DNA of 64,000 bases, from contig JAEUIH010000005.1 of the NCBI GenBank assembly GCA_016795105.1, positions 133,220-197,219 of the forward strand, in the 5' to 3' direction. The position numbers and the translations under genes are program-made. Position 1 is the first letter of the stretch, and the number at the start of each line of letters is the position of its first letter. The notes below the pieces were generated by a model. The model made no database searches. It was not told where the DNA came from and saw nothing but the letters and a program-made list of their open reading frames with translations. Origin of the DNA: Planctomyces sp. GTDB lineage: Bacteria; Planctomycetota; Planctomycetia; Planctomycetales; Planctomycetaceae. Positions 4,187-56,647 of this stretch are shown piece by piece.

Positions 4187-4461
4187 GAATCTCGAATGAG
4201 TTGCGTCCCCATTCTCCTGCCCCCAACTTTCCTGTCCCGGGTCATTGATCTTGATCTTGCCTTCTGAGTTGACCAGGCTGTTGCTCGGGTAAAACGCCTT
4301 TCCGAACATGCTGACGGGGCACAGTCAACGTGTCATGCAATGCAGTAGCATTCACGTTTAACGGCAAGCCAAAGGCGTCTGCGCAAGTTTAGCGGCAAGC
4401 CAAAGGCGTCGGCCTGCTGTTCCGCCAGTCACAAAACGTACACTCATCCATCAAACCTATT
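4187..4461. other. Non-coding stretch with a dispersed repeat
   Basis: No convincing gene is seen. The stretch holds one copy of the GTTTAACGGC...GGCGTC repeat (listed separately) and leads into the tandem repeat array. Confidence 0.5.
4356..4410 (+). repeat. Dispersed GTTTAACGGC/GGCGTC repeat, copy 1
   Basis: The unit is GTTTAACGGCAAGCC followed by a GGCGTCTGCGC spacer and a second half GTTTAGCGGCAAGCC...GGCGTC. The same two-part unit occurs at 10991-11045 in the same orientation and at 11264-11318 inverted. It is an intergenic repeat of unknown function. Confidence 0.8.
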
Positions 4462-5042
4462 AATTCCCCAGTGTTCTTTCAAGTACAAGGCTGACCGAAA
4501 GGTTTGAATCAACACCATTCCGCGGCATGTCGACATGGCAAAGGCAAGAGGGAACGCAAAGGCGCAGAGACGCAAAGAGATCAAACACCCCGGTGTCACT
4601 CTTCTCTGCGTCTTTGCGCCTTTGCGTCTCTGCGTTCACTTTCCCCAAAAACCCATTCAATTCCCAGAGGCCATTCAAGCACACGGCTGACCGAAAGGCC
4701 TGAATCAACACTGTTCCGCGGCATGTCGACATGGCAAAGGCAAAAGCGAACGCAAAGGCGCAGAGACGCAAAGAATTCAAACACCCCGGTGTCACTCTTC
4801 TCTGCGTCTTTGCGCCTCCGCGTCTCTGCGTTCACTTTCCCCACAAACCCATTCAATCCCCAGAGCCCTTTCAAGTACAAGGCTGACCGAAAGGCCTGAA
4901 TCAACACCGTTCTGCGGCATGTCGACATGGCAAAGACAAAAGGGAACGCAGAGGCGCAAAGAATTCAAACACCCCGGTGTCACTCTTCTCTGCGTCCTTG
5001 CGCCTCAGCGTCTCTGCGTTTACTTTCCCGACAAGCCCGTTC
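4462..5042. repeat. Three tandem ~190-bp repeat units with internal inverted repeats
   Basis: Units lie at 4462-4658, 4659-4854 and 4855-5042, and a fourth begins at 5043 but is cut short. Each contains GCTGACCGAAAGG, the GCGGCATGTCGACATGGCAAAG segment, and a long hairpin in which an arm rich in CGCAAAGGCGCAGAGACGC faces its reverse complement across CACCCCGGTGTCACTC. In the third unit the left arm has lost about 18 bp, so the array is diverging. Open frames read through it on both strands are artefacts of the repeat. It could be a MITE-like or REP-like array. Confidence 0.9.
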
Positions 5043-5138
5043 AATCCCCAATCCGTTGTCACTTCATGCTGACTATTGGAACTCCCTCGGCTGGAAAGAC
5101 CCCTTTAGTCAGGAAGCGTTCTCTGAGCGACAGCGGGA

Positions 5139-6095
5139 CTAAGGTTGATTTCCGAGGAAATCACGGATGAGCGCAGCGATCGCCGCCCCGTCCTCTTCGA
5201 GGGCAAAATGCCCTGTATCCAGCAGATGAAACTCCACGCTCTTCAGGTCACGCTTGTACGGGAACGCACCGGCGGCAGGAAAGATCGGGTCGTTTTTACC
5301 CCAGACGATCAGTGTGGGCGGCTGGTACTTGCGGAGATATTCCTGCCACTGGGGATACAGAGGTGGGTTGCTTCCATAGCTGAAGAACAGAGCCAACTGG
5401 ATCTCCTGATTGCCAGGTCGATCCAGAAGCGGTTGTACATGTCCCCATGTGTCGGGACTGATGGTTTCCAGATTGCGGACGCCTGTAGTGTACTGCCATT
5501 TCGTCGCATCCAGAGTCAGCAGCGATCGCAGACCGTCCCCCTTTTCTTTGCTTCGATCTGCCCAATAGGCCTTGACGGGTTTCCAGAAGTCGTTGTCGAG
5601 CCCTTCATCATAGGCGTTTCCGTTTTGCACGATCAGCGATCTCACCCGTTCCGGGTGTTTTACGGCAAGACGAAACCCCACCGGAGCCCCGTAGTCCATC
5701 AGATAAATCGAATACTCGGTCAATCCAACCTTCTCGGTGAACTTCTCGACCACGTTCGCCAGGTTGTCGAAGGTGTAGTCGAAATCGTCGACCGACGGAG
5801 CCGAACTATTGCCGAAGCCAGGGTAATCCGGCGCGACGACATGATACTTCTCTGCCAACGACGGAATCAGATTCCGAAACATGTGGGATGAAGTCGGAAA
5901 GCCGTGCAACAGTAATACAGTCGGCGCATCCTTTGGGCCCGCCTCGCGGTAGAAGATGTCGAGATTGTCGACCTTGATCGTGCGATGCAACACTGTTGTC
6001 GTCGGCAACTGCGGCTCATCGGCTGTGACGGACGCACCGTACGAGATAATCGTGGCAAGAGTCATCGCGACAAAGGAGTTATGGAATAGATTCAT
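5139..6095 (-). CDS. Exported alpha/beta hydrolase (epoxide hydrolase/haloalkane dehalogenase-like)
   Basis: The protein has 318 residues from the ATG at 6095-6093. The frame stays open upstream, but this start follows GGAG at good spacing and begins a signal peptide ([20 protein letters not shown]...TADE). The mature part has the HGFPTSS oxyanion motif, a DYGAPVG nucleophile elbow with aspartate as the probable nucleophile (as in epoxide hydrolases and dehalogenases rather than serine esterases), WGKNDPIFP around the acid residue, and DTGHFALEE with the catalytic histidine. The substrate cannot be predicted. It stands alone and convergent to the upstream cluster. Confidence 0.85.
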
Positions 6096-13701: not shown

Positions 13702-13759
13702 TTCCGATTGATCATGTGTGTTCAGGGCGTTCAATTCATTTCTTCTGGAGAGATTTCAA

Positions 13760-14635
13760 ATGGCATGTCCAAAACCAGGTATTTATGAAGGTGTCGGTGA
13801 TGAGTATTTCGAATGGGACGCGGTCAGCAATTCTCGGCTGAGTTTGTTGAATCGGTCCCCGAAGCATTATCAGCTCGGATTCACTGAACCGACGGAACAG
13901 ATGAAGCTGGGTTCCCTGGTGCATTCAGGAGTACTCGAGCCGTTGGCGATCATGAAGCGGTACACCTTCATGCCGAACTATGCGAATCATCCCGACAACA
14001 AGACCGGCAAAGGTGACCGGTCGTTTTCGGCTGCCACGACCTTTGTCAAAGAGATGGAGGAGAAGTTTCGTCAGCTCAACCATGACAAAGAGATCATCAC
14101 GGAACAGCAGTACAACGTGATGCTGGGAATGGCACAGTCCCTGGCAGAACATTCGGTCGCGTCTCCGCTTCTCCGAGGTGGTAAACCCGAAATCGCTGTT
14201 GTGTGGGTCGATGAGGAGACCGGACTGACTTGCAAGGCCAAGGCGGACTGGCTCAAGCCTGGGTTGCTGGTGGACTTTAAGACGACGGCCGACGCCAGCA
14301 TGTTCGAGAAGGCCATTGCAAATTACGGCTACCACCGCCAGATGGCGTTCTACCAGCGTGGGTTGCAGGCAAACGGAATCGACGTTTCGCCGTGGATCAT
14401 CTGCTGCGAAACGAAGGCACCGTTCGGTGTCCGGGTTGCTCCGATGTCGGAAGACTGTCTGGACCTCGGCCGGCGAGAGGTGGATGCACTCCTCGGCACG
14501 CTGGTTGACTGCATGGAATCGAACAACTGGCCGGGATACGAAAGCCCTGAGGCCTGGACATTGCCCGGGTGGTACAAGCGGCCGGAAGAAGAGTCGATCG
14601 AGCTGACTATCGGCGGCGAAAAACTGCTGGTGTGA
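13760..14635 (+). CDS. PD-(D/E)XK exonuclease of RecE/DUF3799 type
   Basis: The protein has 291 residues from ATG 13760, preceded by CTGGAGAG; the frame is open to 13718. Nuclease motifs are visible in order: GSLVHSGVLEP with the conserved histidine, LTCKAKADW (Asp163), LLVDFKTT (Asp172-x-Lys174), and YHRQMAFYQ (the Q-x3-Y motif). The layout matches the C-terminal nuclease of RecE-like phage recombinases, which resect double-stranded ends for single-strand annealing. No RecT-type annealing protein was recognised; the small gene downstream could take that place. Confidence 0.85.
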   Translation: MACPKPGIYEGVGDEYFEWDAVSNSRLSLLNRSPKHYQLGFTEPTEQMKLGSLVHSGVLEPLAIMKRYTFMPNYANHPDNKTGKGDRSFSAATTFVKEMEEKFRQLNHDKEIITEQQYNVMLGMAQSLAEHSVASPLLRGGKPEIAVVWVDEETGLTCKAKADWLKPGLLVDFKTTADASMFEKAIANYGYHRQMAFYQRGLQANGIDVSPWIICCETKAPFGVRVAPMSEDCLDLGRREVDALLGTLVDCMESNNWPGYESPEAWTLPGWYKRPEEESIELTIGGEKLLV

Positions 14636-16013: not shown

Positions 16014-16326
16014 TCCGATCGAATCAGCCAACGGACACGCGGTCCGGATCGACATGCTGCGCGAACACGGGTGGGTGCCGTGGACCCAGTATGGTGTTGT
16101 CCGAGCGATGGATTCGCTGTGCAAGCCTCGTCAGTGTGTCTGGATTGAAGGCAAGCTTGCCGGTGCCGAACGAACGGCATTTATCGTCATCGACGATGGT
16201 CGCATCATCATGCACGCCGAAGAGCAGGACTATGAGTTCGTCGAGTTCATCCGGCTACTGACACATGGGCCGGAGCCGGTCCGCGAAACAAGACAGGTTG
16301 TGGACAGACAAAGGAGTTTGTTTTGA
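16003..16326 (+). CDS. Hypothetical phage protein
   Basis: The protein has 107 residues, starting at ATG 16003 inside the end of the previous gene, with GGGAG upstream. It has no recognised motif. It lies between the DUF1599-like gene and the C5-methylase and overlaps the latter by four bases. Confidence 0.55.
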   Translation: MRTDPIESANGHAVRIDMLREHGWVPWTQYGVVRAMDSLCKPRQCVWIEGKLAGAERTAFIVIDDGRIIMHAEEQDYEFVEFIRLLTHGPEPVRETRQVVDRQRSLF

Positions 16327-17231
16327 AGGCCTGCGACACCAAAAGCGGAGACTCTCGAGCGACTCCTGTTTCGGAGACGATTCAAACTGTCTTGAGCCTT
16401 TTCCCAGGCGTTGGACTTCTCGATCGGGCGTTTGAGGAACGCGAAGAATTCAGCGTCGTACGAGGCCCTGATCTGATCCATGGCGGAGACATTCGGAACT
16501 TCCGTGTCGCCGCCGGCGTGTACGGCGGGATTATCGCTGGTCCGCCATGTCAGGGATTCAGTCAGGCAAATGCACATCGATTCAATCCACAACATCCAAG
16601 TGTGCGAAACTCAGTGGAAATGCTCGAACTGACTGTTCGGCTAATCGAAGCAGCTCGGCCGACATGGTTTCTGATTGAGAACGTCCCAAACGTTCCGGAC
16701 GTGCGTGTGGGGCCCTACATTGTGCAGCGAATAGCAATCAATGATTGGGAGTGCGGTGGCCTGCAACTTCGATGGCGGGCTATTCAGTTCGGCCACATTG
16801 AAGGATGGCACCTCCGCCCGAGTCGCGTGAATGACCGGAGCTTTTCCCGGAAAAAAGGTCGACGGCCGGAAGCGATTACAACGAAGCCGACCAGCAGACA
16901 CATGACATTCGCAGAACAGTGCCGCAGGCAAGGCCTGTCAGAGCCTGTGAGTCTCCCCGGATGGACTCGAGAAGCGAAGTTCAGGGCCGTCGGAAACGGA
17001 GTCCCATTGTCCGTGGGCCGTGTTCTCGCTGCGGCGGTTGCTGAATGTGTTTCGCCGGCAAACGAAAATGATTGTCTTTGTGGATGCGGTCGCAGCGTGT
17101 CGGGCCCAAGGCAACGGTCGGCAACAGCAGCTTGCAGGAAACGGCTACAGATGAGGCGGGAAGCCGCAGCGAAGTTCGGTTCCCCTAATCATGATTTCGC
17201 CGAAATGGCAGATCAAAGGAGTTCGATTTGA
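16323..17231 (+). CDS. DNA (cytosine-5) methyltransferase
   Basis: The protein has 302 residues from TTG 16323 (AAGGAG seven bases upstream; TTGA overlap with the previous stop). C5-methylase motifs are clear: LSLFPGVGLLDRAF (motif I), GPPCQGFSQ with catalytic Cys76 (IV), FLIENV (VI), LQLRWRAIQFG (a divergent motif VIII) and RAVGNGVPLSVGRVLA (X). The target-recognition region is short. A cysteine-bearing tail, CLCGCGRSV...RSATAACRKR, follows the catalytic domain. No cognate restriction gene is adjacent, so it is probably an orphan phage methylase used against host restriction or for regulation. Confidence 0.9.
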   Translation: MKACDTKSGDSRATPVSETIQTVLSLFPGVGLLDRAFEEREEFSVVRGPDLIHGGDIRNFRVAAGVYGGIIAGPPCQGFSQANAHRFNPQHPSVRNSVEMLELTVRLIEAARPTWFLIENVPNVPDVRVGPYIVQRIAINDWECGGLQLRWRAIQFGHIEGWHLRPSRVNDRSFSRKKGRRPEAITTKPTSRHMTFAEQCRRQGLSEPVSLPGWTREAKFRAVGNGVPLSVGRVLAAAVAECVSPANENDCLCGCGRSVSGPRQRSATAACRKRLQMRREAAAKFGSPNHDFAEMADQRSSI

Positions 17232-18193
17232 TGTATCGCATCGTTAAGTGGAATGAGACATTCGAAAACGCGGATACTCGGAAGCGGGTTCGACTCGGAT
17301 ACTTCATGGTGCCTTCCGGAAGCGACTCTGCTGGATACATCGAGCTAATGTCACACGGTCATGATGGAGTGACCGCATTTGGGGTGTTTATCGCAATCTG
17401 CCAATGGTCTGCCACCTGTCCGCCACGTGTCCGTGGAACCTGCTCGAGGACTGACGGGCGTGCCCTGACGGTACGACAGATAGCAGCTGCCATCCGAATG
17501 GACGTTTCCATTGTGCAGAGAAGTCTGGAACTGCTTTGCAATGAAGATGTCGGCTGGATGCAGTTCGAGGAACAAAAACCTGAGCAAATTCAGCCATCTG
17601 CCAACGATCTGCCACCATCTGCCGGTAATCTGCCACTGCCTGCCGAAAATCTGCCGCAAGGAGAAGGAGAGGTAAAGGGAAAAGGAGAAGGAAAGGGAGG
17701 GAAGGAACCGGCAGACGCCTCCGCCGCTTTCGCGGCCCCCTCCGGCATTTCCGATTTCGACGATTCCGAATCCGACCCTCCCGACAAACCACCTACCCAG
17801 ATCGCCCACGTCGTTCCGTACGAAGCGATCCGCAACCGATTCGACGAGACGTTCGGCCTTGCCTCCCAGCTCACCGAAAAACGACGCAAGGCCCTCAAAG
17901 CCAGGTGGCGTGATTCCTGGTGGCGCGAGAATTGGGAGGCTGCACTGGAACGTGCTGGCCCTTCAGCGTTTCTTCGAGGTGCCAATGACCGAAACTGGGT
18001 AATCGACTTTGAGTTTTTCGTGCGCCCCGACACCGTAACCAAAATGCTCGAGGGAAAGTATGACAACCGAAAATCAGCAAACCACCGCCAGGCCGGGAAC
18101 ACCGCAGCTGCCCGCGAAGACCGGAACGCAGCAGCTTTCGCGGCCTGCTTCGCAGCAGCACAGACCGACGATGCTCCCGGCGGCCCGGAATAG
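17231..18193 (+). CDS. Replication initiator/organiser-like protein (lambda O-like role)
   Basis: The protein has 320 residues from ATG 17231 (AAGGAG eight bases upstream; TGATG junction). The N-terminal 115 residues look like a winged helix (HDGVTAFGVFIAICQWSA, LTVRQIAAAIRMDVSIVQRSLELL). A low-complexity linker follows, then a C-terminal domain typical of phage replication proteins: KRRKALKARWRDSWW, NWEAALERAGPSAFLRGAND, WVIDFEFFVRPDTVTKMLEGKYD. Repeated ATCTGCC-type motifs and a long purine tract lie inside the gene, as the origin does in lambda O. It overlaps the next gene by 134 bp. Confidence 0.7.
   Translation: MYRIVKWNETFENADTRKRVRLGYFMVPSGSDSAGYIELMSHGHDGVTAFGVFIAICQWSATCPPRVRGTCSRTDGRALTVRQIAAAIRMDVSIVQRSLELLCNEDVGWMQFEEQKPEQIQPSANDLPPSAGNLPLPAENLPQGEGEVKGKGEGKGGKEPADASAAFAAPSGISDFDDSESDPPDKPPTQIAHVVPYEAIRNRFDETFGLASQLTEKRRKALKARWRDSWWRENWEAALERAGPSAFLRGANDRNWVIDFEFFVRPDTVTKMLEGKYDNRKSANHRQAGNTAAAREDRNAAAFAACFAAAQTDDAPGGPE
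17396..17709 (+). other. Candidate replication origin inside the initiator gene
   Basis: Cluster one has ATCTGCC, GTCTGCC, GTCCGCC and GTCCGTG at 17396, 17407, 17418 and 17429, spaced exactly 11 bp. Cluster two has ATCTGCC at 17596, 17607, 17617, 17628 and 17649 (10, 11 or 21 bp apart). A run of almost pure purines follows at 17658-17709. The spacing follows the DNA helix, and in cluster one it is not matched by any repeat in the protein. Confidence 0.5.
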
Positions 18194-18497: not shown

Positions 18498-18707
18498 ATG
18501 CAATATGCGATTGAAATGAACGAATCGGCAGAATCCGCAGTAATTTCTCAGGTATGTGCAGATTCTTGTTCATTTCGAAAACATTCTCGATTGAACTGAC
18601 GTTTTCAGCTGTAAGTAAGACTTTCCATCATGTTTTCATTTTGACAATGCGAACAAACGCAGCAGTGAATTCGGCTGCATTCAGCTTTCTGGAATGAGAG
18701 TTTGTTC

Positions 18708-19331
18708 ATGAGAATCACGGCTCGATCTTTGGTTTTAGCAGGACAAGGTTTCGCACCACAAGCGATAACGGATCATTGGTTGATCACAAAAGGGGTGGTT
18801 CCAGAAAGCAAGATTTTCTCGCCAAGGGTCGCGACCAATCAGTTCGCGATCGTTACCTCCTCGGATTTTTCCTTGCAGGTTTTTCCAGAAAAGATGCAAT
18901 TCCATATAAACGAATTGGTGAACTACAGTCATATAAGAGGATCTTTGCACAAGCTCCTCGATAATTGGACATTCGGCAGAGCCACTGCATGCGGCATCAA
19001 CGTTCATTGCTTGTTGAATCCAAGTGACCCAGAATTGCTGTCACGACAGAATTTGAAGCCAACTAAAACAATCCACGGATTGGAACGAGCAAGATTCGGG
19101 ACACTCGCGGTATTAGAGAATGCAATTGAAGGGGCAGTCATGAAAATGGTCATCGCTCCAGAATTCGAAGATGGTGACCCATCGAACAAACTCAGAAGCA
19201 TTGAAGCTGACTTCAATTTCCATTTGCCTCTGACGCAAGAAAACGGCGCGTTAAAGGAGGCAAAGTTGTTCTTCGATCAATACGAAAAAATCTCTGATTT
19301 TGCAACGACTTTGCTGGCACAAGTGTCATGA
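18708..19331 (+). CDS. Cassette gene 1: unknown 207-residue protein
   Basis: The protein starts at ATG 18708 (a TTG at 18702 is in frame) after a 210-bp gap. It is a mixed alpha/beta protein with no signal or membrane segment. Segments include NQFAIVTSSDFSLQVFPEKMQFHINELVNYSHIRGSLHKLLDNW (given by position, residues about 46-88) and RARFGTLAVLENAIEGAVMKMVIAPEF. I do not recognise it. Its base composition is more AT-rich than the phage genes on either side. It overlaps gene 2 by ATGA and heads a three-gene coupled unit. Confidence 0.6.
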   Translation: MRITARSLVLAGQGFAPQAITDHWLITKGVVPESKIFSPRVATNQFAIVTSSDFSLQVFPEKMQFHINELVNYSHIRGSLHKLLDNWTFGRATACGINVHCLLNPSDPELLSRQNLKPTKTIHGLERARFGTLAVLENAIEGAVMKMVIAPEFEDGDPSNKLRSIEADFNFHLPLTQENGALKEAKLFFDQYEKISDFATTLLAQVS

Positions 19332-20044
19332 ACAAAGACCACACAGAGATAAAAAACCGCATTCGCAAGACGAAGACAGAACGTCAAGATGTTCCGCATG
19401 ACCTGGTCAGCGAGTTGATAGACGATTCGGAAGACATCAACTTCTATCGAATCCAAAACGCTACTCACCACTCAGACGGCCTGGGTGGCTTCGGCGAAAG
19501 AGGTGTCGCACCAACCCAAAACGTGCCAGTTCTCCGTCAACTGTTGAATAAATTTTCAATCATTTGGATCGATTACATCGATTCATCTCGCGGGTCTGTT
19601 ACGGACTGGGCTCGTCACCAATTGATGGGTTCAGGGAAACGCCGTTGGTCTTCTGCGTCTTCGTTAACTCAAGTGTCCTGCTCGATCAGTATGTCATCGA
19701 CGTCAAGCATCAGTGATATTTCGGAGTTCTTCGTCAGCAGCTTTTTCCAAGAGATCGAACGATTCATAGAGAATGGAAATGAGGATCGCTGCCTTGTCTT
19801 CGTCTACAGGGAACTAGGTGCAGTTGTTTATCGCCGCAACTTTAAACTTGGCGAACGAATACTCTCAAGCGTCTCAGTCAAGGACACTCATCCGGACGTT
19901 TTGGTTGCAATTGCAATTTCGATTGCTGATATTCAGGAAGACGCACTGCCTTCCAAAAAACTCTTTTTGAGAAGTGTACTGGAGAAGCTGCAAGAGGTAC
20001 CTGCTAACGAACAGAGGTATAATTTGGTTGTGAAATTTGTATGA
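19328..20044 (+). CDS. Cassette gene 2: unknown 238-residue protein
   Basis: The N-terminal third is charged. A middle stretch is rich in serine (RWSSASSLTQVSCSISMSSTSS), followed by a folded-looking C-terminal part, SEFFVSSFFQEIERFIENG, RCLVFVYRELGAVVYRRNF, HPDVLVAIAISIADI. I recognise no domain. It overlaps genes 1 and 3 by four bases each, so the three products are probably made in fixed ratio and may form a complex. Confidence 0.6.
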   Translation: MNKDHTEIKNRIRKTKTERQDVPHDLVSELIDDSEDINFYRIQNATHHSDGLGGFGERGVAPTQNVPVLRQLLNKFSIIWIDYIDSSRGSVTDWARHQLMGSGKRRWSSASSLTQVSCSISMSSTSSISDISEFFVSSFFQEIERFIENGNEDRCLVFVYRELGAVVYRRNFKLGERILSSVSVKDTHPDVLVAIAISIADIQEDALPSKKLFLRSVLEKLQEVPANEQRYNLVVKFV

Positions 20045-20700
20045 CCAACGTTCCGTGTTGTTTGCCAGTTTCAAAGAAGCAAATTCGGCGATTCGCCGTC
20101 GCCTTCGGCTTTCGAAACCATGGGCACCCTCCCTTGGTTGCTCACGCCAGCATTATCTATCGCGATACGGAAGGTGAGTTGTGTATCGTGGAATTGGCCG
20201 ATACGTCTGGCCATGTGCTTACGAATGAGCTTCGAGATTCTACCTGCGATTTGGTAGATGCGTGGGTGATTCCGGCATTAAGTGAAGCTGAACTCTTGCA
20301 CCTCTCGAAAATCTGTGAGGCATATGAAGACGAGTGGGTTCGTTTCGGGTTCAACTACGAGCAAGGAGAACTGACCTGCGCAAGTTTCGTGATCAGCATT
20401 TTCTGGAAGATTCGTTTCCAGCTGATAGACGCGTCCACGTGGGAGATTTCGGAGGCTGACAAAAGACTACAAGAATTACTCTGGGAACGACGATGTCAAG
20501 AATTGAAGAAGAGTGGAATGCGTCCTTCGGTGCTGGGTAAGGGTTACCTTGAATTTTTTAATAGATATCGCCCGGAAGATGTCTTTGGAGCCTGTTTGGC
20601 AGGAGTGGAAAAGGTCTCATTTCAGCAGGCGCGTGATAACGCAGAGGTACTCACGTCATGGATGCAGTCAATTGAATCATCGCACAACATGTCAAAGTAG
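20041..20700 (+). CDS. Cassette gene 3: possible permuted papain-fold (YiiX/NlpC-P60-like) enzyme
   Basis: The protein has 219 residues. The order AHASIIY (His35), IVELAD (Glu51) and GELTCASFVISIF (Cys113) follows the permuted NlpC/P60 pattern of YiiX-like proteins, where histidine comes before cysteine. The stretch WVRFGFNYEQGELTCASF matches the usual hydrophobic-Tyr...Cys-Ser/Ala segment. Members of the fold cut peptide or amide bonds or transfer acyl groups. No signal peptide is present, so it would act in the cytoplasm. The assignment rests on motif order only. Confidence 0.45.
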   Translation: MTNVPCCLPVSKKQIRRFAVAFGFRNHGHPPLVAHASIIYRDTEGELCIVELADTSGHVLTNELRDSTCDLVDAWVIPALSEAELLHLSKICEAYEDEWVRFGFNYEQGELTCASFVISIFWKIRFQLIDASTWEISEADKRLQELLWERRCQELKKSGMRPSVLGKGYLEFFNRYRPEDVFGACLAGVEKVSFQQARDNAEVLTSWMQSIESSHNMSK

Positions 20701-20831
20701 TCTTCGGGTCAGAATTTGAAGAATCAGGTTTTGTAAAAGAGTAGTGTTGCGGGTCAATATTGACTCAGTAGCCGCGATTGTTACTATCAATGGCAGCTCA
20801 CAACAGGACAGCCCACTTCTGAAAGGCAATA

Positions 20832-20864
20832 GGGCTGCCTGATGCTACCGAAAGCATGCAGCCC
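20832..20864. other. Two-part hairpin downstream of the cassette
   Basis: GGGCTGC...GCAGCCC encloses ATGCT-accgaa-AGCAT with a three-base bulge on the 5' side. No T-run follows. It separates the cassette from the DUF1353 gene and may act as an mRNA end-protection or rho-dependent element. Confidence 0.5.
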
Positions 20865-20917
20865 ACTCGGGCTGATCCAATCCGATCAAACCGGCTCCGT
20901 GTCACCTGAGGTGGCGC

Positions 20918-21277
20918 ATGTTTGAGCCCGTTGACGGAACGCGAATGCGGTTGACTCGGGAACTCTCGATTTCCATTTCATCGATTCCCTGCGTTGTTCA
21001 TCAGGTTTGCATTCCCGCTGGCTATGAATTTGACGGGGCCAGTATTCCTCAAGCCGCCTGGTCGATCATCGGTGCACCATTCGAGCCGGATTTCGTGCTC
21101 GCGGCCTGTATACATGACTGGTACTGCGATCGAGCACGGTGTTACCACCAGCGGATGATCGGGGACGCCGTGTTCTTCCTGCTATTGGCTCGCGCTGGTG
21201 TGCCGTACTGGCGCAGGGCCTGCATGTATGCTGCGGTCCGGGTCTATGGATGGCTGAAGTGGAGGGGGCAGCGATGA
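20918..21277 (+). CDS. DUF1353 phage protein
   Basis: The protein has 119 residues after GAGGTGG. The signature IPAGYEFDGASIPQAAWSIIG, VLAACIHDWYCD and RMIGDAVFFLLL is typical of DUF1353, a small family common in tailed phages. It often lies near lysis or tail genes, and its function is not established. It overlaps the nuclease gene by ATGA. Confidence 0.8.
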   Translation: MFEPVDGTRMRLTRELSISISSIPCVVHQVCIPAGYEFDGASIPQAAWSIIGAPFEPDFVLAACIHDWYCDRARCYHQRMIGDAVFFLLLARAGVPYWRRACMYAAVRVYGWLKWRGQR

Positions 21278-21723
21278 GGCTACTTCTCGCCAACGTCGGA
21301 TTCATCTGCAGCGTCATGACGTGGCTATCACTCCAGCCACCCCCAACCGGCCTGACCACTCACGCAACAGTGACGCGGGTGATCGATGGAGACACGGTTG
21401 AAGTCGAAATTCGTCACCGCGTCCGGGTGCGACTTCTGGACTGTTGGTGCCAGGAGAGTAAAGCCGACCCACGTCTTCCCGAGGATCAGAGAGAGCAGGC
21501 AAAGGCCCGGGGACTCGCCGCCAAACAGCATCTCCACGACCAATGCGAAGGCAAGGAGGTCATCCTCTACGTGCCGACCGATGGCTCTGGTGACATGTCC
21601 AGGATTTGGACGATGGGGCGAGTCCTCGGGCGGGTGTGGGTGGCTGGTTCGGACAAATCGCTAAACGAGTTGCAGGTGGAATCGGGGCATGCCACGACAG
21701 AGAAGCCGGAGCAGTTGAGATGA
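21274..21723 (+). CDS. Staphylococcal-nuclease-like (thermonuclease) protein
   Basis: The protein has 149 residues with a hydrophobic N-terminus (signal or anchor). The SNase core THATVTRVIDGDTVEVEIRHRVRVRLLDCWCQESK supplies the calcium-binding aspartates and the catalytic arginine and glutamate; the normally following PE is replaced by CQESK. A later NELQVESGHA matches the C-terminal SNase segment. If exported it would degrade DNA outside the membrane. It is coupled by ATGA to both neighbours. Confidence 0.8.
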   Translation: MRLLLANVGFICSVMTWLSLQPPPTGLTTHATVTRVIDGDTVEVEIRHRVRVRLLDCWCQESKADPRLPEDQREQAKARGLAAKQHLHDQCEGKEVILYVPTDGSGDMSRIWTMGRVLGRVWVAGSDKSLNELQVESGHATTEKPEQLR

Positions 21724-24267: not shown

Positions 24268-25614
24268 GTGGGAAATCGCAGCAGTAAAACTCAGCCGGTG
24301 GCGGAGGGAACTTTTCGGGACCGCATTCGAGAGTTCCGCAAAATCAAAGCAGCGGACCTTGTGGTGAATGAACTGAACTGGCGAGTACATCCGGAGAATC
24401 AGAAATCCGCGATGCGTGCCGTCCTCAGCGAGATTGGCTGGGTCGACGCGATCATGGTTCGCGAACGGGGCGACGGCAAATTCCAGATCGTCGACGGTCA
24501 CCTTCGTGCGTCGATGGCACCCGACGACGAAGTGCCCGTTCTGGTCATCGACGTCACTGAGGAAGAGGCAAACAAGATTCTGGTGACGTTCGATCCGATC
24601 GCGGCCATGGCAGAGTCCAACGCGACCAACCTCGATACGCTGCTCCGGGAAGTGGACTTTTCAGACCCCGCACTGAAGCAGCTGCTGGAGGAACTGTCGG
24701 CAGCCGCGGCTCTGGACGAATCGGCCACCCCAATGGAAGTCGTCGAGGACGATATTCCTGCACCACCAGACCAGGCAACCACAAATCCCGGAGATCTCTG
24801 GGTCTTGGGGAATCATCGACTGCTCTGTGGTGATAGCAGTAAGGCCGACGACTTCGATCGGCTGTTGAACGGACATCCGATTCACCTCGTGAATACGGAT
24901 CCTCCATACAACGTGAAGGTAGAGCCTCGCAGCAATAACGCTCATGCTTCAGGTACGAATGGTCTTCGGAATCTGCAACAGAAGCAAAAGACCACGGACG
25001 TTCTACGAGCCAAAGACCGTCCCCTCGCGAATGATTTTGTGTCCGATGAAGAATTCGATCGACTTGTGGATGCTTGGTTCTCCAACATCAGTCGGGTGTT
25101 GCAGCCGGGACGGGCCTTCTACATCTGGGGGGGCGGTTATCCTGGAAGCGGCGGAGCTAAAGGGAACCACGAAACCTATCCACAGTTCATGCGCAAGCAT
25201 GAGCTGAAGTATGCCCAGCTGATTATCTGGGACAAACAACATCCCGTGTTGACACGAAAAGACTTCATGGGCGCTCACGAGTCATGTTTCTACGGCTGGA
25301 GAGAAGGAGCGGCACATCAGTACTACGGCCCTCCAAATGCCACGGACCTTTGGCATGTCAAGAAGGTGAATCCGCAGTCGATGGTTCATCTCACTGAGAA
25401 ACCTGTGGAACTCGCTGCACGCTCGATTCAGTACTCTTCCGTGCGTGGCGAGAACGTACTCGATCTGTTTGGGGGATCAGGATCGACGTTGATTGCTGCT
25501 GAGCAAACTGGCAGGAATTCATTCCTGATGGAGCTCGACCCTCTGTATTGTGATGTGATCGTTCAACGATGGGAAAATCTTACAGGAAGGAAGGCTTATT
25601 TGGAGACGTCTTGA
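24268..25614 (+). CDS. ParB-like domain fused to an N4/N6 DNA methyltransferase
   Basis: The protein has 448 residues from a GTG start. Residues about 25-110 are a ParB/Srx-like domain (LNWRVHPENQKSAMRAVLSEIGWVDAI, IVDGHLRASMA). From about 175 comes a DNA methylase of the beta arrangement: NTDPPYNVKV (Asp211-Pro-Pro-Tyr, motif IV) well before NVLDLFGGSGSTLIAAEQTGR (motif I near residue 415). Such fusions are common next to terminase genes. The methylase probably modifies phage DNA, and the ParB domain may give site selection. It is the first gene of the packaging operon. Confidence 0.9.
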   Translation: MGNRSSKTQPVAEGTFRDRIREFRKIKAADLVVNELNWRVHPENQKSAMRAVLSEIGWVDAIMVRERGDGKFQIVDGHLRASMAPDDEVPVLVIDVTEEEANKILVTFDPIAAMAESNATNLDTLLREVDFSDPALKQLLEELSAAAALDESATPMEVVEDDIPAPPDQATTNPGDLWVLGNHRLLCGDSSKADDFDRLLNGHPIHLVNTDPPYNVKVEPRSNNAHASGTNGLRNLQQKQKTTDVLRAKDRPLANDFVSDEEFDRLVDAWFSNISRVLQPGRAFYIWGGGYPGSGGAKGNHETYPQFMRKHELKYAQLIIWDKQHPVLTRKDFMGAHESCFYGWREGAAHQYYGPPNATDLWHVKKVNPQSMVHLTEKPVELAARSIQYSSVRGENVLDLFGGSGSTLIAAEQTGRNSFLMELDPLYCDVIVQRWENLTGRKAYLETS

Positions 25615-26514: not shown

Positions 26515-26677
26515 GACGATCTGGAATACAAGCCTGACGGCACTTCTGCACTGTTGCCTGGCGTCACTGTTGCTGGTCTATAACTGCATGACGACGCGGG
26601 GAAAGCGGAGTGTTGCCGATTCGCTTTCTCGTGTCATCAATCGCAGGCAGCCCGTGAAGGGAAAGCGACGACGTTGA
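26501..26677 (+). CDS. Small membrane protein between the terminase genes
   Basis: The protein has 58 residues from ATG 26501, overlapping the small terminase by 14 bp and the large terminase by four. A hydrophobic span TALLHCCLASLLLVYNC precedes a basic tail ending GKRRR. Function is unknown. Confidence 0.45.
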   Translation: MRLIETIWNTSLTALLHCCLASLLLVYNCMTTRGKRSVADSLSRVINRRQPVKGKRRR

Positions 26678-28617
26678 GCCATCTCGCCGGCATGACACCA
26701 GGTCGCTGGCGGTCGATGGTCGCGGATGGCTGGCAATCTCGAGTTCCCGAGAATCCTCTTACCTGGCTTCCAAAGTATGTGCGATATCCGGAGGGATGGG
26801 AGACCCCCCGGTTTGATTTCGATGACGCGCCCCACGTTCGAGGCCTGATCGAACGATTCGTGATGGACCCGACAAAGCGGAAAGCCAATCTCTGCTGGGC
26901 CACGCGATTGGCAAAAACGACAACACTCGAAGCCCTGGCAATGTGGAAGGCAGTTGAGGACCCAGTCCCCATGGTGATTATGTATCCGGACAATGACAGT
27001 TTGCTGGCCATCGACGAACATCTGTATCCAGTGTTCGAGCGATGCGAGCCAGTCGCTGCCCAATTGCCTCCGGAATACCAGCGGAACACGATCTCCATTC
27101 GACTTACAAACTGCTCGATCCGTCTGGCTTCCGGTGGTAAGAAAAGCAGCGTGAGCGGGTTTCCGGCCCAGTGGATTATGAAATTCGAGCATGACAAGAC
27201 CTCGAAACGGAAATCCACCGAGGCGGATGCATCGCTTCGACTGGACTCTCGTGCGTCCGGATTTGTACGCGGCGTGAAGATCATGGAGGAAGGGACTCCG
27301 GAGGAGAAGCACGCCAGTCGTGTTTCAAAGCTGATCGATTCTCCGGACGTGCAACAGGTCCACTATTGGGTGCAGTGCCCGCACTGTCGCAAGTACCAAA
27401 CGCTGCACCATGATCAGATCGAGTGGGACAAGGCTGCGTCCGGGAAATCTGAAGTGGCACTGGCCGAGCGGACCGCCTGGTACCGTTGCATTCACAAGGG
27501 CTGCCGAATCGAGGATCACCATCGGCCGGAGATGATGAGATCCGGCAAGTGGTTGATTGAGGGCGAGCGTATCGACTCGAAGGGCAAGGTCTCCGGGAAA
27601 CCAAAGGTGGATTCCGCCACCATGGTCTTCGGCCCGCTGAGCAAACTCTACAGCCTACTGATCAAGGGCTGGGGCTCCATCGCAACGGAAATGGTTGCTG
27701 CCCGACATGCAGCTGCCGTTGGCAACATGGAGCCCATGAAGAAACTCTATTCAGAGACATTCGCCATTCCCTGGGATCCGATGCGAAAAGCGGTGCGAGT
27801 CAACGAGCTCGCTGAACGACTCCGTTGTGACGATCATCAGGAACGGGGCGTGCTTCCAGACTGGACAAACTTTCTGACACTCACTGCGGACGTCGGGAAG
27901 ATCGCGGAAGAACTTATCTTCTATTGGATGGTCATTGCCTGGGGGCACATCGCTCGAGGGGCCGTGACTGATTGGGGAGTCTCGACCGGCGTTTCTGAAC
28001 TCCTCGAATTCTGGAAATCGGCAGCCTACAGCCTCGGAGGGGTGCATGTTCCGCTTTGGGGCCAGCCGGCAGGAATCGATTCAGGAAAGTACTCGACCGA
28101 AATCTATCAGCTAACGCGTTCGATCAAGAACTGCTTTCCGACCAAAGGGGACACGAAGAGCAAGTCGATTGACCTGTACTGGCCGGGATACCAGCGGGCC
28201 GGATTGACACCGCGCGAACTGGAGCTCAAGCGGAAGGCCAACGCCTATGATCTTTTGTACTTCAACTCAAACATGACTCAGGAATGGCGAGTCAGTCTGG
28301 TCGAAGGACGATTGACTCCGGATCAACCAGGGTTCGTATCTCTGCCGACAGACGTGTGTGACAGCTGGGAGCTGCATGAGGACTTTCTGCAGGAGCTGAC
28401 AGCGGACCAGCAGGTCGGCGGCAAGTGGCTCGGAGAAAACAACGAATACGGCGACACGTTGCGTTACGGTCGCGGTCTGGCTGAGTGTGTCACTCAGAAC
28501 GGGAAGAAATGGGGCAAGCTGAGACCCATGTCTCAATTGGCTCAATCCGGCCCGAAAATGTTTGTTCGTGAAAAACCCGGGGCCGTCAGTGCCCCATTTG
28601 TGAAGGGATGGCAGTGA
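26674..28617 (+). CDS. Phage terminase large subunit (GpA family)
   Basis: The protein has 647 residues, the size of lambda GpA-type terminases. It starts at TTG 26674 (TTGA overlap); ATG 26692 is an alternative. It shows an adenine-binding/Walker A region ANLCWATRLAKTTTLEAL, VIMYPDNDSLLAIDEHLYP, and the GpA zinc-binding insert WVQCPHCRKYQ...CIHKGC. The C-terminal nuclease domain continues with TADVGKIAEELIFY, an RNase-H-like strand. It cuts concatemers and drives DNA into the prohead. Confidence 0.88.
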   Translation: MSHLAGMTPGRWRSMVADGWQSRVPENPLTWLPKYVRYPEGWETPRFDFDDAPHVRGLIERFVMDPTKRKANLCWATRLAKTTTLEALAMWKAVEDPVPMVIMYPDNDSLLAIDEHLYPVFERCEPVAAQLPPEYQRNTISIRLTNCSIRLASGGKKSSVSGFPAQWIMKFEHDKTSKRKSTEADASLRLDSRASGFVRGVKIMEEGTPEEKHASRVSKLIDSPDVQQVHYWVQCPHCRKYQTLHHDQIEWDKAASGKSEVALAERTAWYRCIHKGCRIEDHHRPEMMRSGKWLIEGERIDSKGKVSGKPKVDSATMVFGPLSKLYSLLIKGWGSIATEMVAARHAAAVGNMEPMKKLYSETFAIPWDPMRKAVRVNELAERLRCDDHQERGVLPDWTNFLTLTADVGKIAEELIFYWMVIAWGHIARGAVTDWGVSTGVSELLEFWKSAAYSLGGVHVPLWGQPAGIDSGKYSTEIYQLTRSIKNCFPTKGDTKSKSIDLYWPGYQRAGLTPRELELKRKANAYDLLYFNSNMTQEWRVSLVEGRLTPDQPGFVSLPTDVCDSWELHEDFLQELTADQQVGGKWLGENNEYGDTLRYGRGLAECVTQNGKKWGKLRPMSQLAQSGPKMFVREKPGAVSAPFVKGWQ

Positions 28618-29767: not shown

Positions 29768-30583
29768 GTGTCGATCAGTGTCCGCGAACAGTGTCGATTG
29801 CTGGGTTTCCAGCGCAGCAGCATTTACTATGAGCCTCAGCCGGAAACGCAGGACAATTTGCGGATCATGCGATTGTTGGATGAAGAGCATATGCGGCATC
29901 CTGCGAGCGGCTCGCGACAACTGGTCGACTTTCTGGAGGATCAGGGAGTGGATGCCAATCGCAAGCGAGTGCAGCGTTTAATGAGGAAAATGGGGATCGA
30001 AGGGATCTCGCCGAAACGCCGAACGACACTGGCCGCGGCTGGTCATCACGTCTATCCGTATCTGCTACGAGACATCAAGATCGAACGACCAAATCAGGTC
30101 TGGTGTAGCGACTTTACCTACGTCCCCATGGCAACCGGGTTCATGTATCTCGTTGCTGTGATGGATTGGTACAGTCGTCATGTTCTCAGCTGGCGTCTAT
30201 CGAACAGCATGGACGCAGATTTTTGCGTCGAAGCACTCGACGAAGCTTTGGAAGGAGGCAGTCCGGAAATCATGAATACCGATCAAGGCTCGCAGTTCAC
30301 GGGCCGCGAATTCACCAACCGTCTCAAAGACCGTGGGGTGGCAATCAGCATGGATGGCAAGGGGCGAGCGATCGACAATGTCATGATCGAACGTCTGTGG
30401 AGAACTGTGAAGTACGAAGACATCTACCTCAAGGAATACACAGACGGAACCGATCTTCAGAAAGGATTGAAATCCTATTTCTACCACTATACTTCAATCC
30501 GCAAACACACTTCGCTTGACCGCCAAACGCCGGCAGAAGTGTACCGTAGTGGTCGGATAAAACGCGACGTTCCCTCTATCTAA
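29768..30583 (+). CDS. IS3-family transposase OrfB (DDE integrase)
   Basis: The protein has 271 residues from GTG 29768; its frame is open upstream to the A9 run. The HTH_21 region (RLLDEEHMRHPASGSRQLVDFL) and the DDE catalytic core (WCSDFTYV, MNTDQGSQFTG, NVMIERLWRTVKYE) are complete. Its frame is +1 relative to orfA, so a fused OrfAB needs a +1 or -2 change, or transcript slippage, at the A9 run. Confidence 0.93.
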   Translation: MSISVREQCRLLGFQRSSIYYEPQPETQDNLRIMRLLDEEHMRHPASGSRQLVDFLEDQGVDANRKRVQRLMRKMGIEGISPKRRTTLAAAGHHVYPYLLRDIKIERPNQVWCSDFTYVPMATGFMYLVAVMDWYSRHVLSWRLSNSMDADFCVEALDEALEGGSPEIMNTDQGSQFTGREFTNRLKDRGVAISMDGKGRAIDNVMIERLWRTVKYEDIYLKEYTDGTDLQKGLKSYFYHYTSIRKHTSLDRQTPAEVYRSGRIKRDVPSI

Positions 30584-55311: not shown

Positions 55312-55584
55312 ATGTCAAGTTCCAGCCAGAATTGGGATTGGTTGGTGCAGATTTGCACGAACCCACCAGAGAAAACCTGGGAGTGCGTACCACCTACAAA
55401 CTGGCGATTCTGTCCAGGAAAATCTGGGGAACCATGGGTGTCGTACGAAATCGCTTCACAGGTTTTGCGCATGAGTGCGGCGACGATTGAACGGAAGGCC
55501 CGGCGAGTGAAAAAGCACCCAGCGTTCCCCGGATTGATCCGGCTTACTGATTTCGAGGACATTGGCAATGGCGAAGAAACGTAG
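55312..55584 (+). CDS. Possible small DNA-binding protein before the integrase
   Basis: The frame gives 90 residues and overlaps the integrase start by 17 bp. The C-terminal part, GEPWVSYEIASQVLRMSAATIERKARRVKKHPAFPGLIRL, reads like a helix-turn-helix with a basic end. The N-terminal part is tryptophan- and cysteine-rich. The start is uncertain. Confidence 0.4.
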   Translation: MSSSSQNWDWLVQICTNPPEKTWECVPPTNWRFCPGKSGEPWVSYEIASQVLRMSAATIERKARRVKKHPAFPGLIRLTDFEDIGNGEET

Positions 55585-56647
55585 TCGGCAGGCCCATACC
55601 GGAAGTGTCTACCAGTCGGGAGGTCAGTGGTACGCAGCTGTGATGGTTCACGGCCGGAGACGTCGCATACGGTGTGAAACAAAGGCAGAGGCTTTACAAA
55701 AGCGGTTCGAACTCTGCCAACTTGCAGAGGCGAATTCCAGTTTGGTTGCTTCCACATTTGGGGTGTTTCGACTGCGTTGGCTGGAGACCGTAAAGGCCAA
55801 CAAAGCAGCGAATACCCATGAAGCAATCAAGTACGCCCTGAGACATTTCGAGCCGCTTGATCAGATTCCACTCGAGAAAGTCACAGGGCAGTCGATTCAA
55901 ACGGTGCTGAATGGGCTCAACGGTCGTTCCCGGCAACATGCCTTCGACAAATGCCGACAAATGCTAAACATGGCCGTGCGTTGGAAGTGCCTACTGAGCA
56001 ATCCGATGGAGCACATGGATCGTCCCGCTCATGAACGAGGTGCGATTGACCCGTTTGAAGTCGGTGAGGTCTCGATGATCCTCGAGGCGTTGAAGGATTG
56101 TCGTTACGGGGCCGCCGTTGCGCTGGCGTTCTGTTGCGGTCTTCGAGGTGGCGAACTCTGGGGGCTTCAGTGGGGAGATTTGAAGGGAAACGAACTGACC
56201 ATTCAGCGACAGGCGTGTGAGGTGTCAGGGAAGGTTGAGATCAAGACGACAAAAACGACCAATTCAATTCGTAGAATACTCATTGCAGATTCTGTTTTGA
56301 CAGAGATCCACGTCCGTCGTGAGGAATCACTTCGAGAAGGCAATGCTGCCATTGCCTGGATGTTTCCGGGACTCAGGGGAGAAGTGACACGGCGAAGCAA
56401 TTTTGCCCACCGTGTGTGGAACCCTTTGCTCAAGCAGCTCAAGCTCCGGCAACGAGGCTTTCATCATGCGAGACATACAGCCGCAACATTGTTGCTGAAT
56501 GCCGGATCCGTGCCACTGGCTGTTGTGTCGAAGATTTTAGGCCATGCCAGTCCGAAGATTACTCTCCAGACTTATGCTCATGTAATGACAGCCGACCTTG
56601 AAAAACACAGAAACGCATTCGACGTCATCACGAGAAAGCTGGGGTGA
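55568..56647 (+). CDS. int: Tyrosine recombinase (phage integrase)
   Basis: The protein has 359 residues from ATG 55568. An N-terminal arm-binding region (SGGQWYAAVMVHGRRRRIRCETKAEAL) is followed by a SAM-like core-binding domain and the catalytic domain with LRGGELWGLQW (Arg193), HHARHTAATLLL (His299/Arg302), LGHASPKITLQTY (His326) and Tyr336. All catalytic residues are present. It lies beside attR and the tRNA-Ala target, as usual for tRNA-directed integrases. Confidence 0.95.
   Translation: MAKKRSRQAHTGSVYQSGGQWYAAVMVHGRRRRIRCETKAEALQKRFELCQLAEANSSLVASTFGVFRLRWLETVKANKAANTHEAIKYALRHFEPLDQIPLEKVTGQSIQTVLNGLNGRSRQHAFDKCRQMLNMAVRWKCLLSNPMEHMDRPAHERGAIDPFEVGEVSMILEALKDCRYGAAVALAFCCGLRGGELWGLQWGDLKGNELTIQRQACEVSGKVEIKTTKTTNSIRRILIADSVLTEIHVRREESLREGNAAIAWMFPGLRGEVTRRSNFAHRVWNPLLKQLKLRQRGFHHARHTAATLLLNAGSVPLAVVSKILGHASPKITLQTYAHVMTADLEKHRNAFDVITRKLG

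Follow-up and report, generated by a model that had tools for sequence, protein, structure and literature searches.

A recurrent three-gene unit with a predicted permuted papain-fold protein in a Planctomyces prophage, a candidate mobile conflict cassette

We have found that three overlapping genes in a prophage-like region of a Planctomyces sp. genome, called here A, B and C, belong to a unit found with the same order of genes at dozens of distant loci, which excludes a chance origin of the arrangement. Genomic association leads us to favour, with some confidence, the reading of this unit as a mobile conflict cassette with three components, which most likely provides immunity against phages or other mobile elements and also protects the carrier prophage from superinfection. 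The computed results behind this reading are the conservation of the unit, the fold of C and its catalytic positions, the fusions of B, the swapping of A and the mobility of the whole. The first-pass annotation of this DNA, which had proposed a coupled cassette carried as conflict or defence-type cargo and ending in a permuted NlpC/P60 enzyme, was largely right. Support for the cargo proposal is indirect and comes from the transferable unit, the joining of B to restriction enzymes, the restriction-modification (R-M) and DISARM genes next to relatives and the presence of the unit on tiny plasmids.

The cassette and its prophage setting

The window, that is, the whole stretch of 64,000 nucleotides analysed, is part of a 255-kb contig, and A-B-C is present once in the 8.9-Mb genome. 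All three genes lie on the forward strand. Gene A (18708..19331, 207 aa) is the variable front component and the proposed sensor; gene B (19328..20044, 238 aa) is the putative adaptor; and gene C (20041..20700, 219 aa) encodes the predicted hydrolase. The three frames are intact and are coupled by ATGA stop/start overlaps at 19328..19331 and 20041..20044, as had been noticed from the start. The non-coding gap assigned to the unit on its 5' side was also confirmed (18498..18707), and a consensus scan detected no sigma-70-like promoter site in it. Likewise, the unit is indeed more AT-rich than its neighbours, with a G+C content of 45% in gene A, 46% in gene B and 49% in gene C against 55-60% in the adjoining phage genes checked, where GC3 is 0.58-0.69 as opposed to 0.49-0.53 in the three genes. 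The hairpin that had been placed behind the unit, however, turned out to be a structured non-coding stretch (20701..20917; z -3 over 20690-20880), with no intrinsic-terminator-like site from 20700 until 20956.

The unit has an O-like replication initiation gene (17228-18193) on one side and a nuclease/terminase region on the other. The prophage-like surroundings include an exonuclease VIII-like gene (13718-14635), a DNA methyltransferase gene (16323-17231), an endonuclease gene (21139-21723), an ORF with PHROG matches to both ParB-like and DNA methyltransferase families (24268-25614), the terminase large subunit gene (26674-28617) and an ORF that is integrase-like as read from its start only (55562-56647). 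The first-pass annotation had put the cassette between replication and lysis modules; the replication side of this placement stands, but a downstream lysis module was not established. Inside the prophage, the start of another ORF (29768-30583) resembles an IS3-type transposase by eye.

Gene C and its predicted fold

None of the three window proteins has a meaningful-score match in Pfam, NCBIfam or PADLOC, and gene C hits PHROG 11836 (E 4e-6), a family whose function is unknown. When 42 members of the C family were compared with Pfam, no family was matched by more than one of them and none at a meaningful score. An AlphaFold2 model of window C built on these 42 sequences (mean pLDDT 83) shows five strands and, after them, a helix starting at Cys113. 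Foldseek by itself gave no significant match for this model; when its candidates were ranked with VIA-align, the best was YiiX (2if6; Z 8.6, rmsd 4.4, 156 residues), followed by the permuted peptidase of B. cereus (BcPPNE, 3kw0; Z 8.3, rmsd 4.3, 135 residues), the MARTX RID domain (Z 5.8) and Aichivirus 2A (Z 5.0), with the remaining entries starting at ~3.6. PMC3142127 describes the YiiX, RID and B. cereus proteins as permuted NlpC/P60 folds and gives as the signature a Cys, a His, a polar residue and a Tyr. In the C family, Cys113 is invariant (42/42) and is preceded by His35 in 41 of the 42 sequences, the exception being L043, whose ORF call, perhaps because of a wrong start or a frameshift, lacks this residue. 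The polar third position is Glu51 in window C and is H, E, D or N in all 42, and the signature Tyr is found in every sequence except that of the window, which has Phe102.

The model, the scores of YiiX and 3kw0 above the background of the remaining matches and the conservation of His35 and Cys113 agree with the original suggestion that the third gene encodes a permuted NlpC/P60 protein, and the assignment of gene C to the YiiX-like papain folds is a well-supported prediction. The family shares with the YaeF/YiiX-like enzymes (YiiX 2if6 and BcPPNE 3kw0; PMC3142127) the predicted fold, the His located before the Cys and the polar third residue, and outside the window copy also the signature Tyr; it differs from them in having no meaningful Pfam match among its 42 members and in being nearly always encoded behind a B domain. 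Because of the Phe in the Tyr column, we call window C YiiX-like in fold and not a full member. This substitution, together with the shortening of the loop that precedes Cys113, makes the activity of window C more doubtful than that of the other C proteins, and the window copy may be an altered one. Its branch, of length 2.19, is the longest in the C tree.

A conserved B-C pair behind an exchangeable front gene

Searches with single B or C proteins gave few or no matches, so that profiles were required. Protein searches in relatives yielded a few divergent C homologues, each of them preceded by a B-resembling gene, and a profile scan for C recovered 39 loci in genome contigs and five in viral contigs, making 44 loci with flanks. 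Their hosts belong to Planctomycetota, Verrucomicrobia, Myxococcota, Proteobacteria, Bacteroidota, Acidobacteria and other groups, with a low and patchy frequency: 4/392 in Planctomycetota, 16/284 in the phylum of a Polyangiaceae genome (L033) and 4/369 genomes in the class of Pseudomonas mandelii (L037). An A-type search in viral contigs found none, and a DNA-level search of E. coli with one Pseudomonas gene gave nothing, this search having low power at such divergence. The gene immediately 5' of C contains the B domain in 42 of the 43 testable loci, as judged with a leave-out HMM from which the sequence under test had been removed together with its close relatives, whereas none of 551 other ORFs used as background scored better than ~0.008. 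Window B itself was recovered at 6e-8 by a model built without it. Among 19 newly fetched loci, 18 have the B domain 5' of C, with ORF calls that overlap in two. The failure of homologues to occur as a three-gene unit had been named as the observation that would count against the cassette; this was tested, and the unit does recur.

The conserved part of B is a helical domain formed by its C-terminal ~110 residues (about residues 128-238 of window B; 19709..20041). In the AlphaFold2 model, residues 128-237 form six helices at high confidence (pLDDT ~97 over 131-220), and the first half, residues 1-125, is of low confidence. The structural matches of this domain are generic TPR/HEAT-like repeats, which would fit a protein-binding adaptor and carry no information on function. 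In relatives, the same domain also occurs fused to other proteins. It makes up the C-terminal end of two MmeI-type R-M enzymes with Pfam MmeI domains (L025 and L048) and of an EcoP15I-Res-like (type III) protein encoded 3' of a DNA methylase (L033), and also of three HTH proteins with an HExxH region that is ImmA/IrrE-like by motif only (L095:6099-7616, L098:977-2464 and L101:5534-6943), in all cases followed by C. The three R-M fusions are scattered on the C tree, which has weak support. Many B proteins end in short LxGL-like tails, most of them having G-L/I/F at the C-terminus, and window B ends in VVKFV.

The gene that precedes the B-C pair varies, being of the TIGR04255 type, the 'WKVESLR' type, COMMD-like, of the window type, of other types or absent. 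The TIGR04255 model (NCBIfam) is matched by 8 of the 31 front genes scanned and by the front gene on a Rhizobium plasmid; this family serves as gene A in relatives, but window A does not match the model. The COMMD-like class was recognised with the A12 profile, which matches the 'COMMD-like protein' of PDB 9q6a (E 9e-19), and is the gene A of planctomycete-type units (L017:2601-3281, L014:5492-6232, L019, L021, L026-L032 and similar loci), a family different from that of window A. As judged from sequence, eukaryotic Commander-type proteins may therefore have bacterial relatives within planctomycete-type A-B-C operons. Because hhalign found no link between the TIGR04255, WKVESLR and window A families, we describe A as several sequence-unlinked families. 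Parsimony on the C tree requires at least 13 switches of A class, a count that depends on the weakly supported tree. The window A family is also the front gene in L049 and L091, and it occurs away from B-C in two places. In genome G059 (L003:1477-3324) its relative is coupled to different, uncharacterised genes of 141 and 267 aa, and on an 18-kb Picosynechococcus plasmid the relative (L109:4254-4934) lies with two other small genes (4254-6004) between hsdR and hsdS of a type I R-M locus; the partners in both loci were compared with B and C without a match. Since A is swapped before B-C and window-type A also travels with other small genes, both halves of the unit are exchangeable.

Mobility, neighbours and possible function

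An A-B-C type unit is the main cargo of a 6.9-kb plasmid of Acinetobacter and a 6.6-kb plasmid of Psychrobacter, and on a Rhizobium plasmid (L060:2603-7585) the unit lies directly 3' of a multi-ubiquitin-like/ThiF E1/DUF6527 operon. Type I R-M genes adjoin L022, L029 and L049, the last with HsdR next to the window-type A, and matches to drmA, drmB and drmC (DISARM), obtained in a pooled scan of neighbours, fit three genes beside L036. The unit is therefore associated with R-M systems (MmeI type IIG, type III and type I) and DISARM both by fusion of B and by adjacency, but the window unit differs from them in that no nuclease or methylase domain was recognised within it. The sensor-adaptor-effector conflict systems of multicellular bacteria (for example PMC8195603) also use shared adaptor domains to join exchangeable immunity parts; the three proteins of the unit differ from them in showing no identified NTPase, death-like or TRADD-N domain.

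As a conflict cassette, the unit could work as follows. Gene A would recognise the invasion trigger and the variable N-terminal part of B would connect to A, a role that in the fusions could be taken over by the restriction enzyme or the HTH-metallopeptidase as the sensing part. The conserved C-terminal helical domain of B would hold C, and upon activation C, with His35, Glu51 and Cys113, would be unleashed or positioned and, if active in the window copy, would cleave a bond (amide, ester or lipid-linked) within a cell or phage component that is essential, with phage restriction as the outcome. More tentatively, B and C could form a portable hydrolase cartridge, attachable to nearly any invasion sensor (the A families of obscure nature, COMMD-like proteins, HTH-metallopeptidases or restriction enzymes), adding to R-M a suicidal or protein-directed second arm.

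The combination of two unknown proteins and a papain-fold effector had been said to match no known system, and this holds for PADLOC-DB 2.0, which gave 0 matches for window A, B and C and for 10 relatives, and for the literature searched. There we found nothing on TIGR04255 and no permuted NlpC/P60 defence system, although subscription papers and preprints were poorly covered and a recent description elsewhere is possible. Modular sensor-adaptor-effector conflict systems are, as a kind, already known. If our reading is correct, this one would be an undescribed phylum-spanning member with a hydrolase effector, in which a single adaptor domain is joined to restriction enzymes as well as to several sensor families unrelated to each other. 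The uncharacterised TIGR04255 family and the COMMD-like proteins of bacteria would thereby gain a function, and the idea of a second, protein-directed arm of restriction would be open to direct test.

Three observations speak against a conflict cassette: PADLOC lists none of its parts, many chromosomal C loci have no recognisable defence neighbour (the neighbour count having no matched control) and the window copy of C is the atypical one described above. The main rival, to which we give a clearly smaller but appreciable chance, is a toxin-antitoxin or addiction module in which C is a growth-inhibiting hydrolase restrained by B, or by A and B, that stabilises plasmids and prophages, any effect on phages being secondary. 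Its role as main cargo of ~7 kb plasmids, the tight translational coupling of its genes and a mobile, patchy distribution would all be expected of such a module; however, the replacement of A by whole restriction enzymes or HTH-metallopeptidases is a better fit to a trigger input than to simple neutralisation, and the Acinetobacter plasmid (pAJ_082-4) already has a RelE/ParE-type toxin gene. It is also possible, if rather improbable, that C processes or deconjugates B or a protein tag. Permuted papain folds include deconjugating enzymes, the PPPDE peptidases, and the G-L/I/F tails of most B proteins and the position of the Rhizobium unit behind ubiquitin-like genes are in line with this; against it, the tail of window B is not GL, ubiquitin-like genes are found at one locus only, and in the model the B tail may be just the final helix packed in this domain.

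Two further explanations concern the window copy and its prophage. That the family is a defence cassette of which the window holds a degenerate or repurposed copy, with C as a pseudo-enzyme or an altered enzyme, would account for Phe102, the shortened loop and the long branch, but we regard it as unlikely, as the three frames are intact and coupled and a change from Tyr to Phe need not destroy activity. Least probable of all is an ordinary phage function in lysis, replication or morphogenesis. The unit does lie in a prophage, with replication genes on one side and packaging genes on the other, and the NlpC/P60 superfamily also includes endolysins; yet three C queries run against 50,697 annotated phage records matched none of them, the relatives are mostly chromosomal or plasmid-borne, and the B domain is fused to R-M enzymes.
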